Made by a program: the position numbers and the translations under genes. DNA of 64,000 bases from Microvirga sp. TS319 (lineage in GTDB: Bacteria > Pseudomonadota > Alphaproteobacteria > Rhizobiales > Beijerinckiaceae), in NCBI RefSeq assembly GCF_041276405.1, contig NZ_JBGGGT010000001.1, positions 603,501-667,500 of the forward strand. The letters run 5' to 3'. Positions 9,331 through 49,321 of this stretch are shown in pieces (positions within the stretch are counted from its first letter, which is position 1; each line of letters starts with the position of its first letter). The notes under the pieces were generated by a model, which saw nothing but the letters and a program-made list of their open reading frames with translations, searched no databases and was not told the DNA's origin.

Positions 9331-10554
9331 ATGGCACTCGCCCATCCCATCCTCGATTCGAAAGAGATCGCCGCGGCAAAAGCATCCAAGACCGAGGGCG
9401 TCCCGGGATGGGATGCAATCGCCAATATCGAGGATCTGCGCGAGCTCGCCAGGAACCGGGTTCCGAAGACCTTCTTCGAGTATGTCGAAGCCGGCTCCTA
9501 CGACGAGATCACCCTGGGGGCGAACAGGTCCGCGCTCGATGCGTTGGAACTGCGTCAGCAGGTGATGGTGGACGTCTCCTCTCGCGTCCAGGCAACGACC
9601 ATCGTCGGCCAGCCGGTCTCTCTCCCGGTCGCCCTTGCACCGGCGGGTCTGACGGGAGCCGTGTATCCGAACGGTGAGATCCATGCAGCACAGGCGGCAG
9701 AGGCGTTCGGCGTTCCCTTCTGCCTGAGCACGATGTCCGTCTGCTCGATCGAGGACGTGGCGGCTGCCGTCGCGAAGCCCTTCTGGTTCCAGCTCTATCT
9801 GATGAAGGATCGCGGGTTCAGCCAGTCGCTCATCGAACGGGCCCATGCGGCGCGATGCCCGGTGCTGGTGCTGACCATGGATCTGCATGTGGAGGGGCAG
9901 CGCACGGCCGATGTACATAACGGCCTCGGCATCCCGCCAAGGCTGACGCTCACCAATATCCTCGATATTGCCAAGCATCCGCGCTGGGCCTTCGGAATGG
10001 TGCGGAGCAAGGAATACACTTTCGGAAATCTGAAGGATGCGATCAGGAACTCGGGCAATCTCGGTATTCTGTCGGAATGGGTCAAGCAGCAGTTCGATCC
10101 ATCTTTTGATCGGAGCGACCTCGAGTGGGTGCGCAAGCTCTGGCCGGGCAAGCTGATCGTGAAGGGCATCCTCGATCCGCAGGATGCCGAGATCGCGGTC
10201 GCCGCAGGCGCGGATGCGGTCCTCGTGTCGAACCATGGCGGGCGCCAACTCGATGGTGCTCCCTCGACCGTGGAGGCATTCCCCCCCATACGCGATGCCG
10301 TGGGAGACCGGACCGAGCTTCTCTTCGATAGCGGGATCCGCTCGGGGCTCGACGTTCTGAAGGCCCTCGCCCTGGGCGCACGGGCGTGCTTCATCGGCAG
10401 GGCCTATCTCTATGGATTGGGTGCCCGAGGCAAAGTAGGCGTTTGCAAGGCCCTTTCGTTGATATCGGAAGAACTCGACACTGGAATGGCGCTCACGGGC
10501 GTAACGGATGTGAAGGCGGTTTCACGCGATGTCCTCGTGCATCCTGACGAGTGA
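9331..10554 (+). CDS. FMN-dependent alpha-hydroxy-acid dehydrogenase, L-lactate dehydrogenase (LldD) type
   Basis: 407 residues from ATG 9331, ten bases after the TPP gene. The FMN-dehydrogenase active-site motif SNHGGRQLDG is present at about residues 300-309 with its catalytic His, and the C-terminal FMN phosphate-binding FDSGIRSG and GRAYLYGLGA segments follow. The N-terminus (DLRELARNRVPKTFFEYVEAGS) is typical. In this family the product would be pyruvate from L-lactate, with electrons to quinone; glycolate oxidase and mandelate dehydrogenase are alternatives with the same motifs. The start is supported by codon frame and spacing. Confidence 0.88.
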   Translation: MALAHPILDSKEIAAAKASKTEGVPGWDAIANIEDLRELARNRVPKTFFEYVEAGSYDEITLGANRSALDALELRQQVMVDVSSRVQATTIVGQPVSLPVALAPAGLTGAVYPNGEIHAAQAAEAFGVPFCLSTMSVCSIEDVAAAVAKPFWFQLYLMKDRGFSQSLIERAHAARCPVLVLTMDLHVEGQRTADVHNGLGIPPRLTLTNILDIAKHPRWAFGMVRSKEYTFGNLKDAIRNSGNLGILSEWVKQQFDPSFDRSDLEWVRKLWPGKLIVKGILDPQDAEIAVAAGADAVLVSNHGGRQLDGAPSTVEAFPPIRDAVGDRTELLFDSGIRSGLDVLKALALGARACFIGRAYLYGLGARGKVGVCKALSLISEELDTGMALTGVTDVKAVSRDVLVHPDE

Positions 10555-10586
10555 TGCAAGACCGCCGGTAACCGGAGGAGTCTGAG

Positions 10587-13580
10587 ATGGCCAACGTGGC
10601 CCTGACCGAGGCCGAGCAGCTGTCGTCGGATAATCGCCGGAGGCATCCTGACCGGCGCATCGAGCGGGCGCCGGACGGACGCATCAGAACCGCCTATACG
10701 GAAGTTCCGGACCTGGACGCGAAAGCGCTGCTTCGAGAGCTCGAGGCCGCACTCGAGGGTGAAGTCCGCTTCGACGATGGCAGCCGGGCACTTTATGCAA
10801 CGGATTCCTCGAATTATCGCCAGGTGCCCATCGGAGTCGTCATTCCGAAAACGCGCGGCGACGTCGTCAAGGCCATCGAGATCTGCCGGCAGCATCACGC
10901 TCCTGTTCTGCCACGTGGGGGCGGAACGAGCCTTGCGGGCGAGTGCTGCAACACCGCCGTCGTCATCGATTTCTCGAAATACCTGAACAGGGTGCTCGAC
11001 ATCGATCCCGTACGCCGACTGGCTCGTGTCGAGCCGGGCTGTATCCTGGACGATCTGCGGGATGAGGCCGCAAAGCATGGCCTTACCTTTGGGCCGGACC
11101 CGGCCACGCACGATCACAACACTCTTGGCGGCATGATCGGCAACGATTCCGGCGGCGTTCATGCAGTCATGAACGGGATCACGGTGCATAACGTGCAGGC
11201 GCTGGAGGTTCTGACCTATGAGGGGCTGGAACTGAGTGTCGGACCGACGGATGACGGGACATTCCGCTCGATCCTGCGCTCAGGGGGGCGCCGTGCCGAG
11301 ATCTATCGTCGACTCGATGAACTGCGTAACCGCTACGGCGATCGCATCCGATCGAAGTTTCCGGATATCCCGCGCCGGGTATCCGGTTATGAGAACCTCG
11401 ATCAGCTTCTTCCTGAAAAGGGCATGAATGTTGCCCGCGCGCTCGTCGGTACCGAAGGCACGTGCGTGACTGTCCTAGAAGCGACCCTCAACCTCATTCA
11501 CAATCCTCATGAACGGGTCATCGTAATCGTCGGCTTCCCGGACATCTACCAGGCGGCGGATGCCGTGCCTCGCGTTCTCAAGCACCATCCGATTGGCCTC
11601 GAGGGCTTCGACGAAACCCTTGTCGACCGGTACAGGACAAAGGGGCTGCACACCGACGACCTGAAGATCTTGCCGAAAGGCCAGGGATGGCTCCTGGTCG
11701 AATTCGGGGGCGACAGCGAGGATGACGCCGCCGCGAAAGCCCAGAGGTTCGTGGATGAGTTCAAGAGCATCGATGGGGTCGATCCGAAGCTCATCCGCGA
11801 CAAGGCCCAGCAGAAGCGGATCTGGAACGTGCGCGATGATTCCCTCGGGGCGGAATCCTACGTGCCTAATCATCCCGACACATGGCCGGGATGGGAGGAC
11901 AGCGCGGTCGCTCCCGATCAACTCGGGGCTTATCTCCGGGAGTTGAAGGCTCTCTTCCGCAAATACGGTTACGATCCCGTCATTTACGGCCATTTCGGCG
12001 GCGGCGTCGTCCATTGCGCCATCGCGTTCGATCTCTACGACGAGCCGGGAATCGAACAATGGCGCCGGTTCCTCGACGAGGCGGCGGAGCTCGTCGTGCG
12101 CCATGACGGATCGCTGTCGGGGGAGCATGGGGACGGTCAGGCGCGAGGAGCCCTTCTTGAAAAGATGTACGGGCCGGAACTGGTCCAGGCGTTCCGCGAG
12201 TTCAAGGCAATCTGGGATCCCCATTGGCACATGAATCCCGGTAAGGTCGTCGATCCCTATCCGATCATCTCGGATCTCCGGGTCGGACCGAGCTATCATC
12301 CCCGCGAGCTCAAGACCCATTTCAGCTTCCCGAACGAAGGAGGCTTCGAGCGCGCCGTTCAGCGCTGCGTCGGTGTGGGAAAGTGCCGCCGGCATGACAG
12401 CCATGAGGAGGTCATGTGCCCGAGCTACCTCGTAACGCACGAGGAGAAATACACGACACGCGGCCGTGCCCGGCTGCTCTTCGAGATGCTGCACGGCGGC
12501 CCGCTCAAGAACGGATGGCGAAGCAAGGCCGTCGAAGATGCGCTGGGCCTGTGTCTGGCCTGCAAGGGTTGCAAGAGCGACTGTCCGGTCGGCGTCGACA
12601 TGGCGAGCTACAAGGCCGAGTTCCGCGCCCATCACTATGCCTGGCGACTGCGGCCACGGCACGCCTATGCCATGGGACGCATCCATTGGCTCGCGCGCGA
12701 GGCATCGCGCATGCCCTGGCTCGCCAACACGATGATGCGGGCTCCGCTTCTGAGCAGCCTCGCCAAGGCGGTCGGCGGGATCGCGCAGCAGCGCTCCATC
12801 CCGCCCCTTGCCCACGAGCCCTTCACCGATTGGTTCCGTCGGCGCCGCGCGCCACGGAGCACGGGGCAGCGCGTCCTCCTGTGGCCTGACACCTTCAACA
12901 ATTACTTCCGGCCAGGAACGGCCATCGCGGCGACGAAAACTCTCGAAGCACTCGGTTTTCAGGTCGTCATTCCGGATCGGCCTCTGTGCTGCGGCCGCCC
13001 GCTATACGATTGGGGTTGGCTCGGAGCAGCCGAGCGACTATGGCGACAGACCATGACGACGTTGTTCGAGGAGATCCGGGCCGGCACACCCCTCATCGGC
13101 CTCGAGCCTGCCTGCCTGGCGGCCTTCAAGGACGAGCTTCTCAATCTTTTCCCCGAGGATGACTTGGCCCAGCGACTCTCCAGGCAAAGCATCTTCTTCA
13201 GCGATTTCGTCAACGAGCATGCCGACGGCATCGCACTGCCGAAAGACGGATCGGACAGAGCGCTGGTGCAGATCCACTGTCATCACCACGCAGTGATCAA
13301 GGCCGAGGGTGAGCGCCAACTGCTCGACCGGGTCGGTCTGACCTACGACGTCGTGCCATCGGGATGCTGCGGCATGGCGGGTGCCTTCGGCTTCAGCGCC
13401 GAAACCTACGACGTCGCGATGGAGATAGGTGAGCGGGTGCTGCTGCCGACCGTGCGGGCGGCCGATCGAGGAACACTTATCCTGGCTGACGGCTACAGCT
13501 GCCGGGAACAGATCGAGCAGGGCACGGGACGGGAAACGCTTCATGTGGCGGAGCTCCTGGCCCACCGCATGGGTCTGTGA
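10587..13580 (+). CDS. Fused FAD-linked and Fe-S (CCG-domain) dehydrogenase: D-lactate or glycolate dehydrogenase
   Basis: 997 residues from ATG 10587, preceded by CCGGAGGAG. The N-terminal half is a PCMH-type FAD domain (LPRGGGTSLAG at about 107-117, then a GlcD/Dld-like FAD-linked C domain with HFGGGVVHCAIAF). The C-terminal half is GlcF-like: two 4Fe-4S ligand groups (CVGVGKCRR, about 593; CLACKGCKSDCP, about 656) and two CCG repeats (LCCGRPLYDWG about 801; SGCCGMAGAFGF about 928). Such fusions oxidise D-lactate, glycolate or 2-hydroxyglutarate at the membrane. Context with LldD and the TPP enzyme favours D-lactate; with malate synthase G at 26.5 kb, glycolate is equally interesting. Confidence 0.9.
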   Translation: MANVALTEAEQLSSDNRRRHPDRRIERAPDGRIRTAYTEVPDLDAKALLRELEAALEGEVRFDDGSRALYATDSSNYRQVPIGVVIPKTRGDVVKAIEICRQHHAPVLPRGGGTSLAGECCNTAVVIDFSKYLNRVLDIDPVRRLARVEPGCILDDLRDEAAKHGLTFGPDPATHDHNTLGGMIGNDSGGVHAVMNGITVHNVQALEVLTYEGLELSVGPTDDGTFRSILRSGGRRAEIYRRLDELRNRYGDRIRSKFPDIPRRVSGYENLDQLLPEKGMNVARALVGTEGTCVTVLEATLNLIHNPHERVIVIVGFPDIYQAADAVPRVLKHHPIGLEGFDETLVDRYRTKGLHTDDLKILPKGQGWLLVEFGGDSEDDAAAKAQRFVDEFKSIDGVDPKLIRDKAQQKRIWNVRDDSLGAESYVPNHPDTWPGWEDSAVAPDQLGAYLRELKALFRKYGYDPVIYGHFGGGVVHCAIAFDLYDEPGIEQWRRFLDEAAELVVRHDGSLSGEHGDGQARGALLEKMYGPELVQAFREFKAIWDPHWHMNPGKVVDPYPIISDLRVGPSYHPRELKTHFSFPNEGGFERAVQRCVGVGKCRRHDSHEEVMCPSYLVTHEEKYTTRGRARLLFEMLHGGPLKNGWRSKAVEDALGLCLACKGCKSDCPVGVDMASYKAEFRAHHYAWRLRPRHAYAMGRIHWLAREASRMPWLANTMMRAPLLSSLAKAVGGIAQQRSIPPLAHEPFTDWFRRRRAPRSTGQRVLLWPDTFNNYFRPGTAIAATKTLEALGFQVVIPDRPLCCGRPLYDWGWLGAAERLWRQTMTTLFEEIRAGTPLIGLEPACLAAFKDELLNLFPEDDLAQRLSRQSIFFSDFVNEHADGIALPKDGSDRALVQIHCHHHAVIKAEGERQLLDRVGLTYDVVPSGCCGMAGAFGFSAETYDVAMEIGERVLLPTVRAADRGTLILADGYSCREQIEQGTGRETLHVAELLAHRMGL

Positions 13581-44901: not shown

Positions 44902-45456
44902 ATGAAGGGAATCGTCTTCACCGAGTTCCTTGAAATGGTTGAGAGAAAGTTCTCGCCGGAACTCGCTGACGCCATAATCGAAGAGGCTGAACTTCCTTCG
45001 GGAGGGGCCTATACGAGCGTCGGAACTTACGATCACAGGGAAATGGTCAAGCTCGTGTCGTGTCTTAGCAACGAGACGGGCATCAGCACCGCCGATCTCT
45101 TGCGGTCATTCGGCATATACATGTTTGAGCGATTCTATGTCTTGTTTCCCGAGTACTTCGACGGAATCGACACTTCTTTTCGCTTTTTGGAGCAGATCGA
45201 AAATTACATTCATGTCGAAGTGCGCAAGCTATACCCTGAAGCGGAGTTGCCGACTTTCGAGTGTGATACATCCCAGCCGGGATCTCTGCGTCTTACCTAC
45301 AGATCCACTCGCCCGTTCGCCAGCCTGGCCGAGGGCTTGATCTGCGGTTGTGTGGCTCACTTCGGAGAGGATGCTGACATTGAAGTCGAGGACCTCTCGA
45401 ATGGAGCCGGGACTAAGGCCTGCTTTCTTGTCTCCCGACGAGGTAGCTCGCCGTGA
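44902..45456 (+). CDS. H-NOX heme gas-sensor protein (HNOB domain), predicted NO-selective
   Basis: 184 residues from ATG 44902 ([18 protein letters not shown]), where the H-NOX domain begins; the open frame to 44788 is not protein-like. Proximal heme ligand H104 sits in [18 protein letters not shown], and the heme-propionate YxSxR motif is Y133-S135-R137 (LTYRSTRPF). The position of Tyr140 in Thermoanaerobacter H-NOX, which stabilises O2, corresponds to L142 here, so O2 binding is not expected and NO selectivity is. It is coupled by GTGA to the kinase gene at 45453; bacterial H-NOX proteins usually modulate a neighbouring histidine kinase or diguanylate cyclase. Confidence 0.92.
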
Positions 45457-47165
45457 GTACACTTGAGCAGCTTGAGCGGCGTCTGGAGCGGGAGAGGCAA
45501 GCGCGAAAGGCGGCTGAGGCGATCGCCGAGGAAAAGACGCGGGAGATCTACGACGCGAACATCCGCCTGCAGCAGCTCAACAATCATCTGGAGGAACTTG
45601 TGCGGCAGCGAACTGCCGAGGTTGCCGCGGCCCGCGATGAAGCCATCCAGGCAAGTCAGGCAAAATCGAATTTTCTCGCGAGCATGAGCCACGAGCTCAG
45701 AACACCCCTGAACGCAATTATCGGTTATAGCGAGATTCTCCTTGAGGAGACGGACGATTTGACGAGGCCCGAGCTCAGGCCGGACCTCGAAAAGATCCGC
45801 GGTGCCGGCAAGCACTTACTCGGGCTGATCAACGACATTCTCGACCTGTCGAAGATCGAGGCTGGAAAAATGGATCTCTTCCTCGAGAGTATCGACATTT
45901 CCGCCCTCGTTGCTGACGTGAGTGCGACCGTTCAGCCGCTGATGGCGAAGAACAGCAACACGTTTGACGTGCATTGCGGTCTCGACCTCGGAGTCGCGCA
46001 TTCCGACCAGACAAAGATGCGGCAGATCCTGCTGAATCTCCTCAGCAATGCGGCGAAGTTCACAAAGGGCGGTCGGATCATACTCTCGGCCAGGCAGTCA
46101 ACCAGAGAGGATCGTGACTGTCTGGAGTTCGAGGTTTCAGACACCGGCATCGGAATGACGATCGAACAGATGGCGAAACTGTACTCGCCCTTCAGTCAGG
46201 CCGACGTGTCGACGACACGAAACTATGGTGGAACTGGACTCGGACTGGCGATCACTAAACATTTCTGTCTCATGCTCGGTGGCGATGTCGCGGTCCGGAG
46301 CGAACTCGGCAAGGGTTCAAGTTTCATCGTCACTCTCCCGGCCGTCTGTCGTACCGACGAGACGACGTCTCCCGAGCGGGCAGAGGGCACGTCCGGCACC
46401 GTGTTAGTGATCGACGACGAGCGCGCCACACACGATCTCCTGGAGCGGGAGCTCGGCGCGCGTGGCTACAGGGTGGTGCATGCTGCAGGTGGGCGCGAGG
46501 GGTTGCGGCTTGCACGCGAGGTGAGGCCGGATGCCATTACGCTTGACGTCATCATGCCTGAGTTTGATGGTTGGGCCGTATTGCGGGAGCTCAAGGCGGA
46601 CCCGGATCTGAAAGGCATTCCGGTGGTCCTTGTGACGATCCTGGGCGACCGGGAGATGGGCTATGCCCTTGGTGCCGCGGATTACTTGACGAAGCCGATC
46701 GATCCCGAGGCTCTGCTCGGTGTTCTGGGATGTTTCCGCGGGCGCCGAGGCGATCTTTCCGTTCTGGTCGTCGATGACGATCCAATGACACGTGAGATGC
46801 TGCGGCGGATCCTGTCGAAGCGAGGCTGGTCGGTGACCGAAGCCGCTGATGGCTCCGATGCCCTTTCCGCTCTAGGTCGGGGGGCACCGGCGGTGGTCCT
46901 TTTGGATCTGATGATGCCTGGAATGGACGGATTCGAAGTGCTTGACACAATGCGCCGGGAGGCCTCTTGGCGTGATATTCCCGTCGTCGTGGTCACGGCC
47001 AAGGACCTGTCCATCGAGGAGGTCTCATGGTTGAACCAGCATGCCGAAAAGATTTTCCAGAAGGGGGCCTATAAGCGATCCGAACTTGTGGGCGTTATTC
47101 ACGACATGATTGCGAGAGGCACGGGAATAAGCGTCTCACGCCGGTCTGCGAGCGATGCTCGCTAG
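45453..47165 (+). CDS. Hybrid histidine kinase with two receiver domains, H-NOX partner
   Basis: 570 residues from GTG 45453, overlapping the H-NOX stop by GTGA. Domains: N-terminal coiled coil (about 1-70, alternating ERR/LER/EEL) with no membrane helix; HisKA with H80 in [11 protein letters not shown]; HATPase with N199 (LLSNAAKF), DTGIGM (230-235) and GTGLGL (260-265); REC1 with D365 (ITLDVIMP) and K414; REC2 with D485 (VLLDLMMP). The coiled coil without a sensor domain fits a kinase controlled by the H-NOX protein. REC2's expected conserved Lys region (IFQKGAY, K537) is slightly displaced. Phosphotransfer could continue to the DivK-like protein encoded after it. Confidence 0.9.
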
Positions 47166-47216
47166 TGCATCGGACGGGAAAAGTGGATTTGCACTTATGG
47201 GTTCGATTCGATGCTC
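47164..47216. repeat. RIME-like palindromic repeat, family A
   Basis: AGTGCATCGGACGGGAAAAGTGGATTT then TGCACTTATGGGTTCG and CGATGCTCCC. It starts at the kinase stop codon, so it separates the H-NOX/kinase pair from the receiver/cyclase pair. Confidence 0.65.
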
Positions 47217-47228
47217 CCTTCTGAGATG

Positions 47229-47280
47229 AGCGCATCGTTCCTGCGAAAAACCGGGACCACTTTTTCGCACGATGCGCTAG
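47229..47280. repeat. RIME-like palindromic repeat, family B
   Basis: AGCGCATCGTTCCTGCGAAAAACCGG and the mirror CACTTTTTCGCACGATGCGCTAG. It is paired with the family A copy at 47164-47216 and ends 35 bp before the DivK-like gene. Confidence 0.75.
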
Positions 47281-47315
47281 CTATTTGGTCTTTTTCCTGA
47301 GCGCCGGAGACGATC

Positions 47316-47690
47316 ATGCCCACGATCCTGCTGGTCGAAGATAACGAGTTGAACCGTGATATGCTCTCGCGCAGGCTCGTGCGTAAGGGATACGACGTTC
47401 TCATTGCCGAGGATGGTGCCAAAGGGTTGAGCGCTGCGGCCGAAGGCAAGCCGGATCTCATTCTGATGGATATGAGCCTGCCGGTTGTCGATGGTTGGGA
47501 AGCGACACGAAGGCTCAAGGCGGAGCCAAGGACGCGATCCATCCCGGTGATCGCCCTGACGGCGCACGCCATGTCGAGTGATCGGGAAAAAGCCGTGTCG
47601 GTAGGCTGTGACGACTACGACACCAAGCCGGTTGAACTGGAACGCCTGCTCGCGAAGATCGAACGCCTTCTCCAGGCTGGCTCCTCATGA
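47316..47690 (+). CDS. Single-domain response regulator, DivK/CheY-like
   Basis: 124 residues from ATG 47316. One receiver domain: E8 and D9 acidic pocket in LVEDNEL, phosphoacceptor D52 in LILMDMSLP, T82 in ALTAHAM and K104 in DTKPV. No output domain, so it would pass or buffer phosphate between other proteins. Its stop overlaps the cyclase start by ATGA (47687-47690), so the two are translated together. Confidence 0.92.
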   Translation: MPTILLVEDNELNRDMLSRRLVRKGYDVLIAEDGAKGLSAAAEGKPDLILMDMSLPVVDGWEATRRLKAEPRTRSIPVIALTAHAMSSDREKAVSVGCDDYDTKPVELERLLAKIERLLQAGSS

Positions 47691-49321
47691 TCAGAAGTTT
47701 ACGATCATCGACGAATGACGCTCTCGATCACCCCACTCATGGAAGTCAGGTACGCGCGCGTCTCACCCATGTCCGGCAGGAACTTCTGGCTCCAGTGAGT
47801 GCAATTGCAGGCTATTCCGATATGCTTTGTGATGAGGCAGCCCGGCTAGGCCTATCGGGGCTCATGCCAGACATAGGACGGATCCGGGAGTCTGCCGAGG
47901 TCTTGCTCGGGCTTGTCGAGAGGCTTCTCGGCGCCGATGTCCCGGCGCCTCGCGGCGAGGGGGAGAGCCTGTCTGGGTTCCAGGAGCGGTTGCTCCATGA
48001 CCTCCGCAATCCACTCAGCGCCATCAAGGGCTATAGCGAGATGCTGCTCGAAGATCTCAGTGATCTCAGGGCTGTGTCGCTTCGCCAGGACCTCGAACAG
48101 CTTCAGACCGAGACGATCCGGCTCCTTTCCAGTCTGGAATGGATCGTCAACCTCACCTGCTATCAAGCCGAACCTGCTGCGACCGAGGCGGAGCAGACGC
48201 AGCTCCAAAGTACCGACTTTCTGCTCGGAACGCGAACGCCCGGGCTTACTCGGGAGCGTCCGCGGGAAACAGGGAAGATCCTGGTCGTCGACGACAATGC
48301 CAGCAATCGTGGTCTTCTCCTGCGGCGGTTGGAGCGTGAAGGGCATCAGGCGATCGAGGCCATCTCAGGGGAGCAGGCTTTGCAAATCCTCAGGGTTGAA
48401 GAAGTCGATTTGATGCTGCTCGATCTGATAATGCCCGACATGAATGGCCTTCAGGTGCTCGAGCGATTGAAGACGCATGAGCGCTTCCGGGATATCCCGG
48501 TCATCATGATCTCGGGGCATCAGGAGACCGCCAGCGTCATCCGCTGCATTGAGGCAGGCGCTGAGGATTATCTGCCCAAGCCTTTCGATCAGGTTCTTCT
48601 CCGCGCCCGCATCAATGCCTGCTTGGAGCGGAAGCACTGGCGCGATCGTGAGCTTGGCTACCTTGCACAGCTTAAGACCGAAAAGGAGAGATCGGATGCT
48701 CTCCTCCGCAATACCCTGCCTGGGCAAATAGTGGACCGTCTCAATGGTGGAGAGGTGGTGATCGCCGACCGGTTCGAGAGCGCCACCATCCTGTTCTGCG
48801 ATCTGGTGGGATTCACCAAGGTGGCCGCGCGTGTAGCGCCAGGTCGACTCGTCGAAAATCTCAACCGGATCTTCTCAGCCTTCGATACCCTTGCGGAGAG
48901 TCTGGGCATCGAGAAGATCAAGACAATCGGCGACGCCTATATGGCTGCTGCAGGTCTTCCCGAGGCCAGGCCGGACCATGCCGAGGTCATGGGTGAGCTG
49001 GCCCTTCAGATGCTTGGGGCACTCGAGCAGATCAATCGGGATACCAAGGTCCGCTTTCGCGCGAGGATCGGAATGCACTCAGGTCCGGTCGTCGCCGGCG
49101 TGATCGGCAGGAACAAGTTCATCTATGACGTCTGGGGCGACACGGTCAACGTCGCAAGCCGCCTTGAAGCCTGCAGCCTGCCGGGACACATTCAGGTCTC
49201 GGAGGAGCTGCGCGGCGCACTCGAGAACTATTATGAGTTCGAGCCGCGCGGCGTCATCAGTGTCCGGGGTAAGGGGAGAATGACAACGTCATTCCTAACA
49301 GCCAGGAGACGTAAGGCATAA
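47687..49321 (+). CDS. HisKA-like/REC/class III nucleotide cyclase, predicted adenylate cyclase
   Basis: 544 residues from ATG 47687. Two HisKA-like repeats come first: residues 30-47 (QELLAPVSAIAGYSDML, with Q31 in place of the usual His) and 100-120 (LLHDLRNPLSAIKGYSEML, with H104). There is no HATPase domain. A REC domain follows (200-310; acid pair D202-D203, phosphoacceptor D246, S276, K298), then a class III cyclase (about 365-540). Metal ligands D372 (FCDLVGF) and D416 (TIGDAYM), substrate residues K412 and D481 (the adenylate pair; guanylate cyclases have Glu and Cys), and N488 and R492 (VNVASR) are present. So phosphorylation of D246 could switch cAMP production. H104 without a kinase domain could be an extra phosphoacceptor or dimerisation site. 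Confidence 0.88.
   Translation: MIRSLRSSTNDALDHPTHGSQVRARLTHVRQELLAPVSAIAGYSDMLCDEAARLGLSGLMPDIGRIRESAEVLLGLVERLLGADVPAPRGEGESLSGFQERLLHDLRNPLSAIKGYSEMLLEDLSDLRAVSLRQDLEQLQTETIRLLSSLEWIVNLTCYQAEPAATEAEQTQLQSTDFLLGTRTPGLTRERPRETGKILVVDDNASNRGLLLRRLEREGHQAIEAISGEQALQILRVEEVDLMLLDLIMPDMNGLQVLERLKTHERFRDIPVIMISGHQETASVIRCIEAGAEDYLPKPFDQVLLRARINACLERKHWRDRELGYLAQLKTEKERSDALLRNTLPGQIVDRLNGGEVVIADRFESATILFCDLVGFTKVAARVAPGRLVENLNRIFSAFDTLAESLGIEKIKTIGDAYMAAAGLPEARPDHAEVMGELALQMLGALEQINRDTKVRFRARIGMHSGPVVAGVIGRNKFIYDVWGDTVNVASRLEACSLPGHIQVSEELRGALENYYEFEPRGVISVRGKGRMTTSFLTARRRKA

Follow-up and report, generated by a model that had tools for sequence, protein, structure and literature searches.

Organization of the locus

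Our analysis concerns four genes of Microvirga sp. TS319 that may connect nitric oxide (NO) to cyclic AMP (cAMP) through a phosphorelay. They lie within a 64,000-nucleotide stretch of a 6.26-Mb, two-contig genome (hereafter the window, whose numbering is used throughout). All four open reading frames (ORFs) are on the plus strand, in the order H-NOX, hybrid kinase, stand-alone DivK-like receiver and response-regulator cyclase. The H-NOX (P0001; 44902..45456) is a 184-residue heme sensor that matches the Pfam HNOB family (PF07700, 7e-41) and carries H104 and the motif Y133-x-S135-x-R137. The histidine kinase (P0002; 45453..47165) is a cytosolic protein of 570 residues in which a coil is followed, according to Pfam, by a HisKA domain (H80), an HATPase domain and two receivers, REC1 (D365) and REC2 (D485). 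The DivK-like protein (47316..47690; D52) contains one receiver by Pfam, and its PDB matches are the PleD receiver and DivK (1m5t), at 2e-26. The cyclase (P0004; 47687..49321) is a 544-residue response regulator in which a degenerate DHp1 domain, a DHp2 domain, a receiver and a class III adenylate cyclase domain follow one another; the Pfam Guanylate_cyc match (4e-57) stands behind two HisKA stretches and the receiver. The phosphorelay and ATPase residues H80, N199, D230, D365 and D485 of the kinase and D52 of the DivK-like protein are intact.

An earlier note on this DNA had described an overlap of the H-NOX and kinase genes by GTGA and of the receiver and cyclase genes by ATGA, a kinase with two receivers and without a sensor or membrane domain, and a repeat between the two gene pairs. 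All of these are present: the overlaps at 45453-45456 and 47687-47690; a kinase in which Pfam finds no sensor and a Kyte-Doolittle profile (19-residue window) no hydrophobic peak; and an intergenic element between kinase and DivK at about 47163..47279, to which no strand is assigned. One end of this element recurs in 94 exact copies in the genome, against none for a control read backwards, and further copies lie elsewhere in the window. The name RIME that the repeat was given is one we adopt as presumptive. The stop codon of the kinase, TAG, is located at the left end of the repeat.

A conserved kinase/DivK/cyclase operon with varying sensors

When the cyclase was used to search 397 genomes of the order, 15 matched at E<=1e-80, including the window's own. 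At the other 14 loci a DivK-like receiver lies ahead of the cyclase in every case (in two by tblastn only), and a histidine kinase with two receivers (HK-REC-REC) lies upstream of DivK in 13, the contig of the fourteenth (L115) coming to an end; two HisKA domains precede the receiver of the cyclase in 13. Upstream sensor genes, scanned at seven of these 14 loci, encode Tll0287-like proteins at six and a Peripla_BP protein at one, and a copy of the trio on a Sinorhizobium plasmid likewise has a Tll0287-like protein. Within the genus, 20 of 48 genomes, the window's own among them, hold a relative of the cyclase at E<=1e-60. Besides three full-length relatives (L027, L028 and L029), the neighbourhoods L030-L032 and L125-L127 were examined; the protein upstream is of the binding-protein type in all four that were scanned (L030, L125, L126 and L127), and no receiver was seen in the L127 kinase. 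The trio is therefore a single unit that is served by different sensors.

The three full-length relatives carry the same operon in genomes from which H-NOX is absent. Their cyclases are 79% identical to that of the window, their DivK proteins 93% identical in L027 and L029 and 77% (96/124 residues) in L028, and their kinases, of about 800 residues, 77-78% identical over P0002 residues 47-570. In these kinases some 290 residues precede the HisKA domain, and this front shows two hydrophobic peaks separated by about 180 residues, of which P0002 has none; in the two of the three fronts submitted to Pfam, no sensor family was found. The window thus holds the trio in the conserved order and with homologous members, and the kinase bears a coil where a membrane or periplasmic sensor front is expected, with neither a Pfam sensor nor a hydrophobic peak. 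Since the coil replaces that front, we regard the operon of the window as a variant and not as a standard member of the family.

In the stretches compared, the flanks of L027, L028, L029 and the window have only the operon in common, apart from family matches at 35% identity. The three-gene operon therefore stands in differing surroundings, as if it moved as a cassette.

The kinase is a mosaic

The start of P0002 carries a motif that also opens H-NOX partner proteins of various kinds. A hidden Markov model (HMM) of this coil, trained on 13 H-NOX partners without a kinase-domain match, recognizes residues 1-60 of P0002 (45453..45632, plus strand) at 6e-19 and all 30 of 30 H-NOX partner kinases. 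It recognizes none of 21 cyclase-operon kinases at E<1e-5 (two at <0.01), and nothing at <0.01 among the other 257 ORFs of the window. Pairwise coil scores are 44.7-75.9 bits to the 30 H-NOX kinases versus 16.2-24.3 bits to the 21 cyclase-operon kinases. The kinase body has the opposite affinity, being 79-80% identical to the three genus kinases versus at most 51% to H-NOX kinases.

Identity by segment locates the change of kinship. Residues 5-60 share 15-17% identity with the genus kinases, compared with an average of 62% for seven H-NOX kinases. Over residues 221-560 the identity to the genus kinases rises to 79-90%, versus 86-92% among the latter, and a tree of this segment joins the window and the three genus rows in one starred clade (100/99). 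Residues 61-220 are intermediate (45-90% to the genus kinases versus 75-100% among them), and a tree of residues 66-220 leaves the window outside the genus clade with no resolved place. As the first and last of these segments have different kin and the middle one is intermediate, the crossover falls within residues 61-220 (45633..46112, plus strand), with residues 221-570 (46113..47165, plus strand) coming from a genus cyclase-operon kinase. By these comparisons P0002 is a mosaic of an H-NOX-partner coil and the body of a genus cyclase-operon kinase. The overlap with the H-NOX gene, the partner coil and the cytosolic HisKA/HATPase core are likewise those of an H-NOX-partner kinase. The earlier note had overlooked that the first 60 or so residues of this kinase form an H-NOX-partner coil.

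A sharp breakpoint at residue 60 is not supported. Nor does a donor origin of residues 61-220 find support, since the window matches H-NOX kinases no better there than L029 does (identity in four segments 0.80/0.65/0.40/0.52 for the window versus 0.79/0.67/0.37/0.53 for L029); the segment could be a partly donor-derived DHp/ATPase region or could simply be evolving fast.

In a tree of 52 kinase bodies, the window and the three genus kinases form one clade (100/99), which is joined by 11 more cyclase-operon kinases (100/99). The tree does not separate into two clean groups: the H-NOX label changes four times and the cyclase label five times, and the H-NOX kinases L128 and L230 are placed beside cyclase kinases (97/92). 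The mixing of labels implies that kinases of this type have been combined repeatedly with each of the two kinds of sensor.

A common coil signature opens many H-NOX partner proteins with differing outputs (window 45453-45632; L069-L094, L128-L207). This coil may be a portable adaptor on which H-NOX docks.

The H-NOX is a newcomer

H104, Y133, S135 and R137 are unchanged in all 10 aligned H-NOX sequences, in agreement with the earlier note, which had pointed out the retained histidine and YxSxR motif. With its HNOB profile match, proximal histidine and YxSxR, the protein is a regular member of the class by sequence. Its distribution is narrow. HNOB is found in one of 48 genomes of the genus, which is the window's own, and in 11 of 298 genomes of the family; searches with P0001 found relatives in 19 of 397 order genomes at E<=1e-5 and in nine of 385 class genomes at E<=1e-25, the own genome being included in each count. 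The GC content of the H-NOX gene is 0.532, whereas 41 non-overlapping window ORFs of at least 200 residues average 0.623 (sd 0.028). The intergenic stretch upstream of it is similarly low (0.533), and the kinase body, DivK and cyclase lie at 0.588-0.592. The H-NOX is evidently a newcomer to the genus operon.

H-NOX rarely meets a class III cyclase

From a profile scan (alignment A1) that confirmed 591 named H-NOX loci, the best 80 were taken. The next ORF on either strand was resolved at 79 of these 80 (all but L202). It encodes HisKA and HATPase with one DivK-type receiver at 23 loci, HK-REC1-REC2 at 19, HATPase only at 10, a kinase with two DivK-type receivers at eight, an EAL protein at seven, other kinase forms at five, a protein without a match at five, a cyclase at one and HisKA alone at one (L140). 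A tblastn search with the cyclase domain (E<=1e-4) gave hits at two of the best 80, L139 and L140. Among 36 further H-NOX loci (30 from the family and order and 6 of 18 plasmid records), a single one, L076, gave a hit, which is weak (E 1e-7) and some 9 kb away from the H-NOX; an ORF scan for cyclases found none at eight loci of the class and at 11 others belonging to the class of the L140 genome. At L210, L223, L224 and L233 the scan did not resolve an ORF for the H-NOX. A class III cyclase thus stands beside H-NOX at two of 135 other loci, a count whose component sets may overlap and differ in method and flank length.

The first of the two, L140, is a metagenome-assembled genome (MAG) of the Myxococcales in which H-NOX is fused in frame to a kinase remnant and DivK, followed by a HisKA ORF and then by a REC-CYC protein that shares 55% identity with P0004 along 349 residues. 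This decay may be natural, through a deletion, or may reflect a faulty assembly. Searched with its cyclase, only the L140 genome itself was found among 14 of its order. The second, L139, is a Parvularculaceae MAG in which H-NOX is followed, after 2 nt, by a 469-residue coil-GAF-cyclase protein (9647-11958); this direct pair corresponds, as two bacterial genes, to soluble guanylate cyclase (sGC), and kin of its cyclase occur in one of 62 family genomes, again its own.

In the cyclase tree the window joins its genus relatives (100/100), and L140, a long branch, joins L119 (87/79, unstarred). A single origin of the window and L140 sets is not favoured, as the tree separates them, albeit by an unstarred join; H-NOX has therefore probably met this module at least twice. 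The earlier note did not recall the four-gene arrangement as described, and our literature searches likewise found no H-NOX/adenylate cyclase system in titles or the opening parts of abstracts among the papers listed. The decayed counterpart in L140 rules out that the set is unique. In the search for a conserved four-part neighbourhood that the note had called for, kinase, DivK and cyclase are conserved in the order, and H-NOX is rare and, among the loci examined, joined to them elsewhere only in L140.

The order H-NOX, HK-REC-REC, DivK recurs at L230 and at 16 of 18 loci of Paenibacillus and Cohnella (L129-L131, L133-L138, L141, L143, L145, L148, L149, L152 and L154-L156), where HK-REC-REC is present at 18 of 18 and DivK at 16 of 18. 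A DivK-matching protein of 343-356 residues lies upstream at 16 of the 18, and at the one tested, L130, it is a REC-HD-GYP protein. A 2022 review (PMC8738867) was aware of no report of a putative NO-sensing H-NOX from Gram-positives.

The cyclase and its orphan HisKA domain

The receiver of the cyclase (48278..48613, plus strand) and its catalytic domain (48764..49300, plus strand) are fully conserved at the residues of interest. D246, D372, D416, K412, D481, N488 and R492 are identical in 25 of 25 aligned rows, the window included; L123, with its 2943-residue ORF, was left out of this alignment and of the tree. The phosphorylatable receiver (D246) and the adenylate pair K412/D481 of the earlier note are therefore borne out. 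K412 and D481 align with identical letters in the C2 domain of adenylate cyclase 9, and we take the two to be an ATP-type pair, the roles of the other residues being assumed likewise. Two metal-binding aspartates, a Lys/Asp purine pair, an asparagine and an arginine are thus present, which is what we take to be the class IIIa set.

Ahead of the receiver lie the two HisKA stretches, and Pfam finds no HATPase in P0004. In the 17 rows that truly span both regions (L032 and L125, with over-extended ORFs, and L140 are excluded, as are L030, L031, L124, L126 and L127, which lack the region), the acceptor histidine of DHp2 (47978..48133, plus strand), H104 of P0004, is present in 17 of 17, and DHp1 has at its acceptor position Q in 13, E in three and H in one. 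Retention of the histidine where no ATPase domain is found would suit phosphotransfer and makes DHp2 a candidate for the missing step of the relay. Such a role suits it because an HK-REC-REC kinase with no adjoining Hpt gene would need one. ChpT and Spo0B are precedents, both being histidine phosphotransferases of the pseudo-kinase type. That DHp2 was copied from the DHp of its own kinase is not clear, as its identity to that domain (0.42-0.64) overlaps the mean to others (0.41-0.54; 16 rows).

Alternatively, the HisKA domains of the cyclase would only dimerize and D246 would be phosphorylated directly from the kinase histidine. This rival concerns one step, is compatible with the relay as a whole and has a little under an even chance. 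DHp domains are dimer modules and the acceptor of DHp1 is mostly lost, and yet the histidine of DHp2 persists in every row while that of DHp1 drifts.

A probable sensor-swapped phosphorelay

We consider it probable that the locus encodes a sensor-swapped phosphorelay, in which the membrane front of the kinase has been replaced by H-NOX and its coil and NO would set the level of cAMP. The operon native to the genus encodes a hybrid kinase of the membrane (HK-REC-REC), a DivK-like receiver and a class III cyclase of the layout HisKA-HisKA-REC-CYC. In the lineage of the window a separate H-NOX and the partner coil would have been substituted for the membrane front, with the crossover within kinase residues 61-220 or thereabouts. 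Binding of NO to the H-NOX heme would alter the contact of H-NOX with the coil and DHp, and this would change autophosphorylation of H80, by analogy probably inhibiting it. Phosphate would pass from H80 to D365/D485, then to a histidine, most economically H104 of DHp2, and on to D246, with DivK (D52) as a competing receiver or sink. Phosphorylation of D246 would set cyclase activity, so that NO sets cAMP. Kinases that partner H-NOX are mostly inhibited by NO, and NO might for that reason lower cAMP rather than raise it.

The earlier note had proposed that H-NOX acts through a phosphorelay on a class III cyclase, and the conserved trio, the coil on the kinase front and the genus-type kinase residues 221-570 lend weight to this. 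As the kinase bears both an H-NOX-partner coil and a genus cyclase-operon body, both halves of the locus appear to be wired to one kinase. Anatomy and comparison give the relay good support: gene order, domains, intact residues, the conserved trio and the mosaic kinase are established, and we infer NO as the ligand, the route of the phosphate, cAMP as the product and the sign of the response.

Several points weigh against the sensor-swapped relay. H-NOX occurs in a single genome of the genus and its base composition is low, which could mean that the graft is young and still poorly tuned; residues 141-220 of the kinase are strikingly diverged; and the sole other four-part set found is decayed. 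The mixed kinase tree indicates that sensors were swapped more often, which makes the direction of single swaps uncertain. Because of the repeat, kinase and DivK lie 150 nt apart and might be expressed separately, DivK might relay the signal to another target, and DHp2 is not clearly nearer the DHp of its own kinase.

An unlikely alternative retains the relay but gives it another input, with H-NOX sensing O2, redox or a zinc/cysteine state in place of NO. The nearest solved structures are H-NOX proteins that we take to be NO-sensing, and Leu142 occupies the position that we align with the O2-stabilizing tyrosine of Tt H-NOX. On the other hand, P0001 has five cysteines, and passages of the 2022 review report that some H-NOX respond to oxidation via cysteines and that those of obligate anaerobes bind O2 (PMC8738867).

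It is distinctly improbable that the graft has failed or is decaying, H-NOX and coil having replaced the membrane sensor by accident and the kinase being no longer controlled. The single genus genome, the low GC of the H-NOX, the diverged segment 141-220 and the decay of L140 would suit this explanation, but all four frames are open, the catalytic residues checked are intact, and the GTGA overlap and a complete coil are retained.

Least probable is that the two halves are independent, H-NOX and kinase addressing another regulator and DivK and cyclase answering another kinase with the repeat as border, since despite the 150-nt gap with its genome-wide repeat, and despite H-NOX kinases elsewhere in whose vicinity no cyclase was found, one conserved trio is the source of DivK, the cyclase and kinase residues 221-570, and the gap measures just 29 nt in L027, 36 nt in L028 and 28 nt in L029.

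Comparison with known systems

In the main text of the 2022 review (PMC8738867), H-NOX neighbourhoods are dominated by histidine kinases and response regulators and by diguanylate cyclases and phosphodiesterases, and the word cAMP does not occur; a second source places NO sensors in cyclic di-GMP (c-di-GMP) networks (PMC8846402, in part). The HnoX-HnoK-HnoB system of Shewanella and the H-NOX/HqsK system of Vibrio resemble the window in that a stand-alone H-NOX acts on a kinase, with a phosphorelay to a second-messenger enzyme or regulator. Their outputs, as given in portions of these two sources, are c-di-GMP enzymes, transcription and quorum sensing, whereas that of the window is a class III adenylate cyclase (PMC8846402, PMC8738867). 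A cAMP output, if true, would be a new branch beside these three.

The window also resembles the HK-REC-REC/DivK-like/HisKA2-REC-CYC operon of the order, which is also found on Sinorhizobium plasmids and for which we found no name. The trio, its order and the domain layout are the same; as sensors that operon has binding proteins, a Tll0287-like protein or the membrane front of the kinase, and the window has H-NOX. Together with its three H-NOX-free relatives, the locus is a natural sensor-swap experiment, which reveals the place at which a membrane kinase can accept a gas sensor of foreign origin and opens the function of the H-NOX coil to direct test. How an HK-REC-REC kinase that has no separate Hpt gene next to it reaches its output may be explained, in a form open to test, by the histidine kept in the orphan HisKA domain of the cyclase.

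Tll0287/DUF3365 (sCache_heme) proteins resemble the H-NOX of the window in being sensors placed before the same trio, at L117:3855-4682, L116:10699-11553, L118:10788-11681, L120:10719-11540, L123:4142-4888, L124:10237-11160 and L024:1976-2830. According to one study (PMC12889525), this domain is a c-heme Cache domain, the version associated with signalling that was tested bound NO tightly, the stand-alone version was judged redox-like, and Guanylate_cyc is named among the associated domains in a figure legend. Unlike the H-NOX of the window, these proteins have a c-type heme and are extracytoplasmic, and it is the stand-alone form that occurs in the operons of the order (PMC12889525). Their position before the trio in several families of the order suggests a heme-sensor-to-cAMP pathway; because they are stand-alone, though of a heme family, we make no claim that they sense NO. 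At L123 (7980-16811) the REC-cyclase frame runs to 2943 residues with half a cyclase domain, which points to an interrupted gene or a masked stretch.

The Paenibacillus REC-HD-GYP/H-NOX/HK-REC-REC/DivK operons share with the window the order of H-NOX, coil, kinase and DivK. Their neighbouring output is HD-GYP (tested with Pfam at L130 alone), with no cyclase hit, in contrast to the cyclase of the window.

Animal sGC, whose signalling-helix coil is treated in a further source (PMC2828450), likewise has a pathway in which H-NOX and a class III cyclase occur together with a signalling coil. The window differs from it in that the proteins are separate and a two-component relay links them, in the ATP-type residues (a Lys/Asp pair instead of those for GTP) and in having no H-NOXA domain in Pfam, and its proteins are thus not a soluble guanylate cyclase. 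We tentatively propose, at somewhat less than even confidence, that NO was coupled to cAMP here by a natural transplant, in which H-NOX and its portable coil were placed on a membrane hybrid kinase already feeding an adenylate cyclase, through a relay that ends inside a cyclase with its own histidine phosphotransfer domain, and that H-NOX reached class III cyclases repeatedly, in the lineage of the window, the Myxococcales MAG and, as a direct pair, the Parvularculaceae MAG, in convergence with animal sGC. Such a system would be a bacterial parallel to the NO-cGMP pathway of animals.

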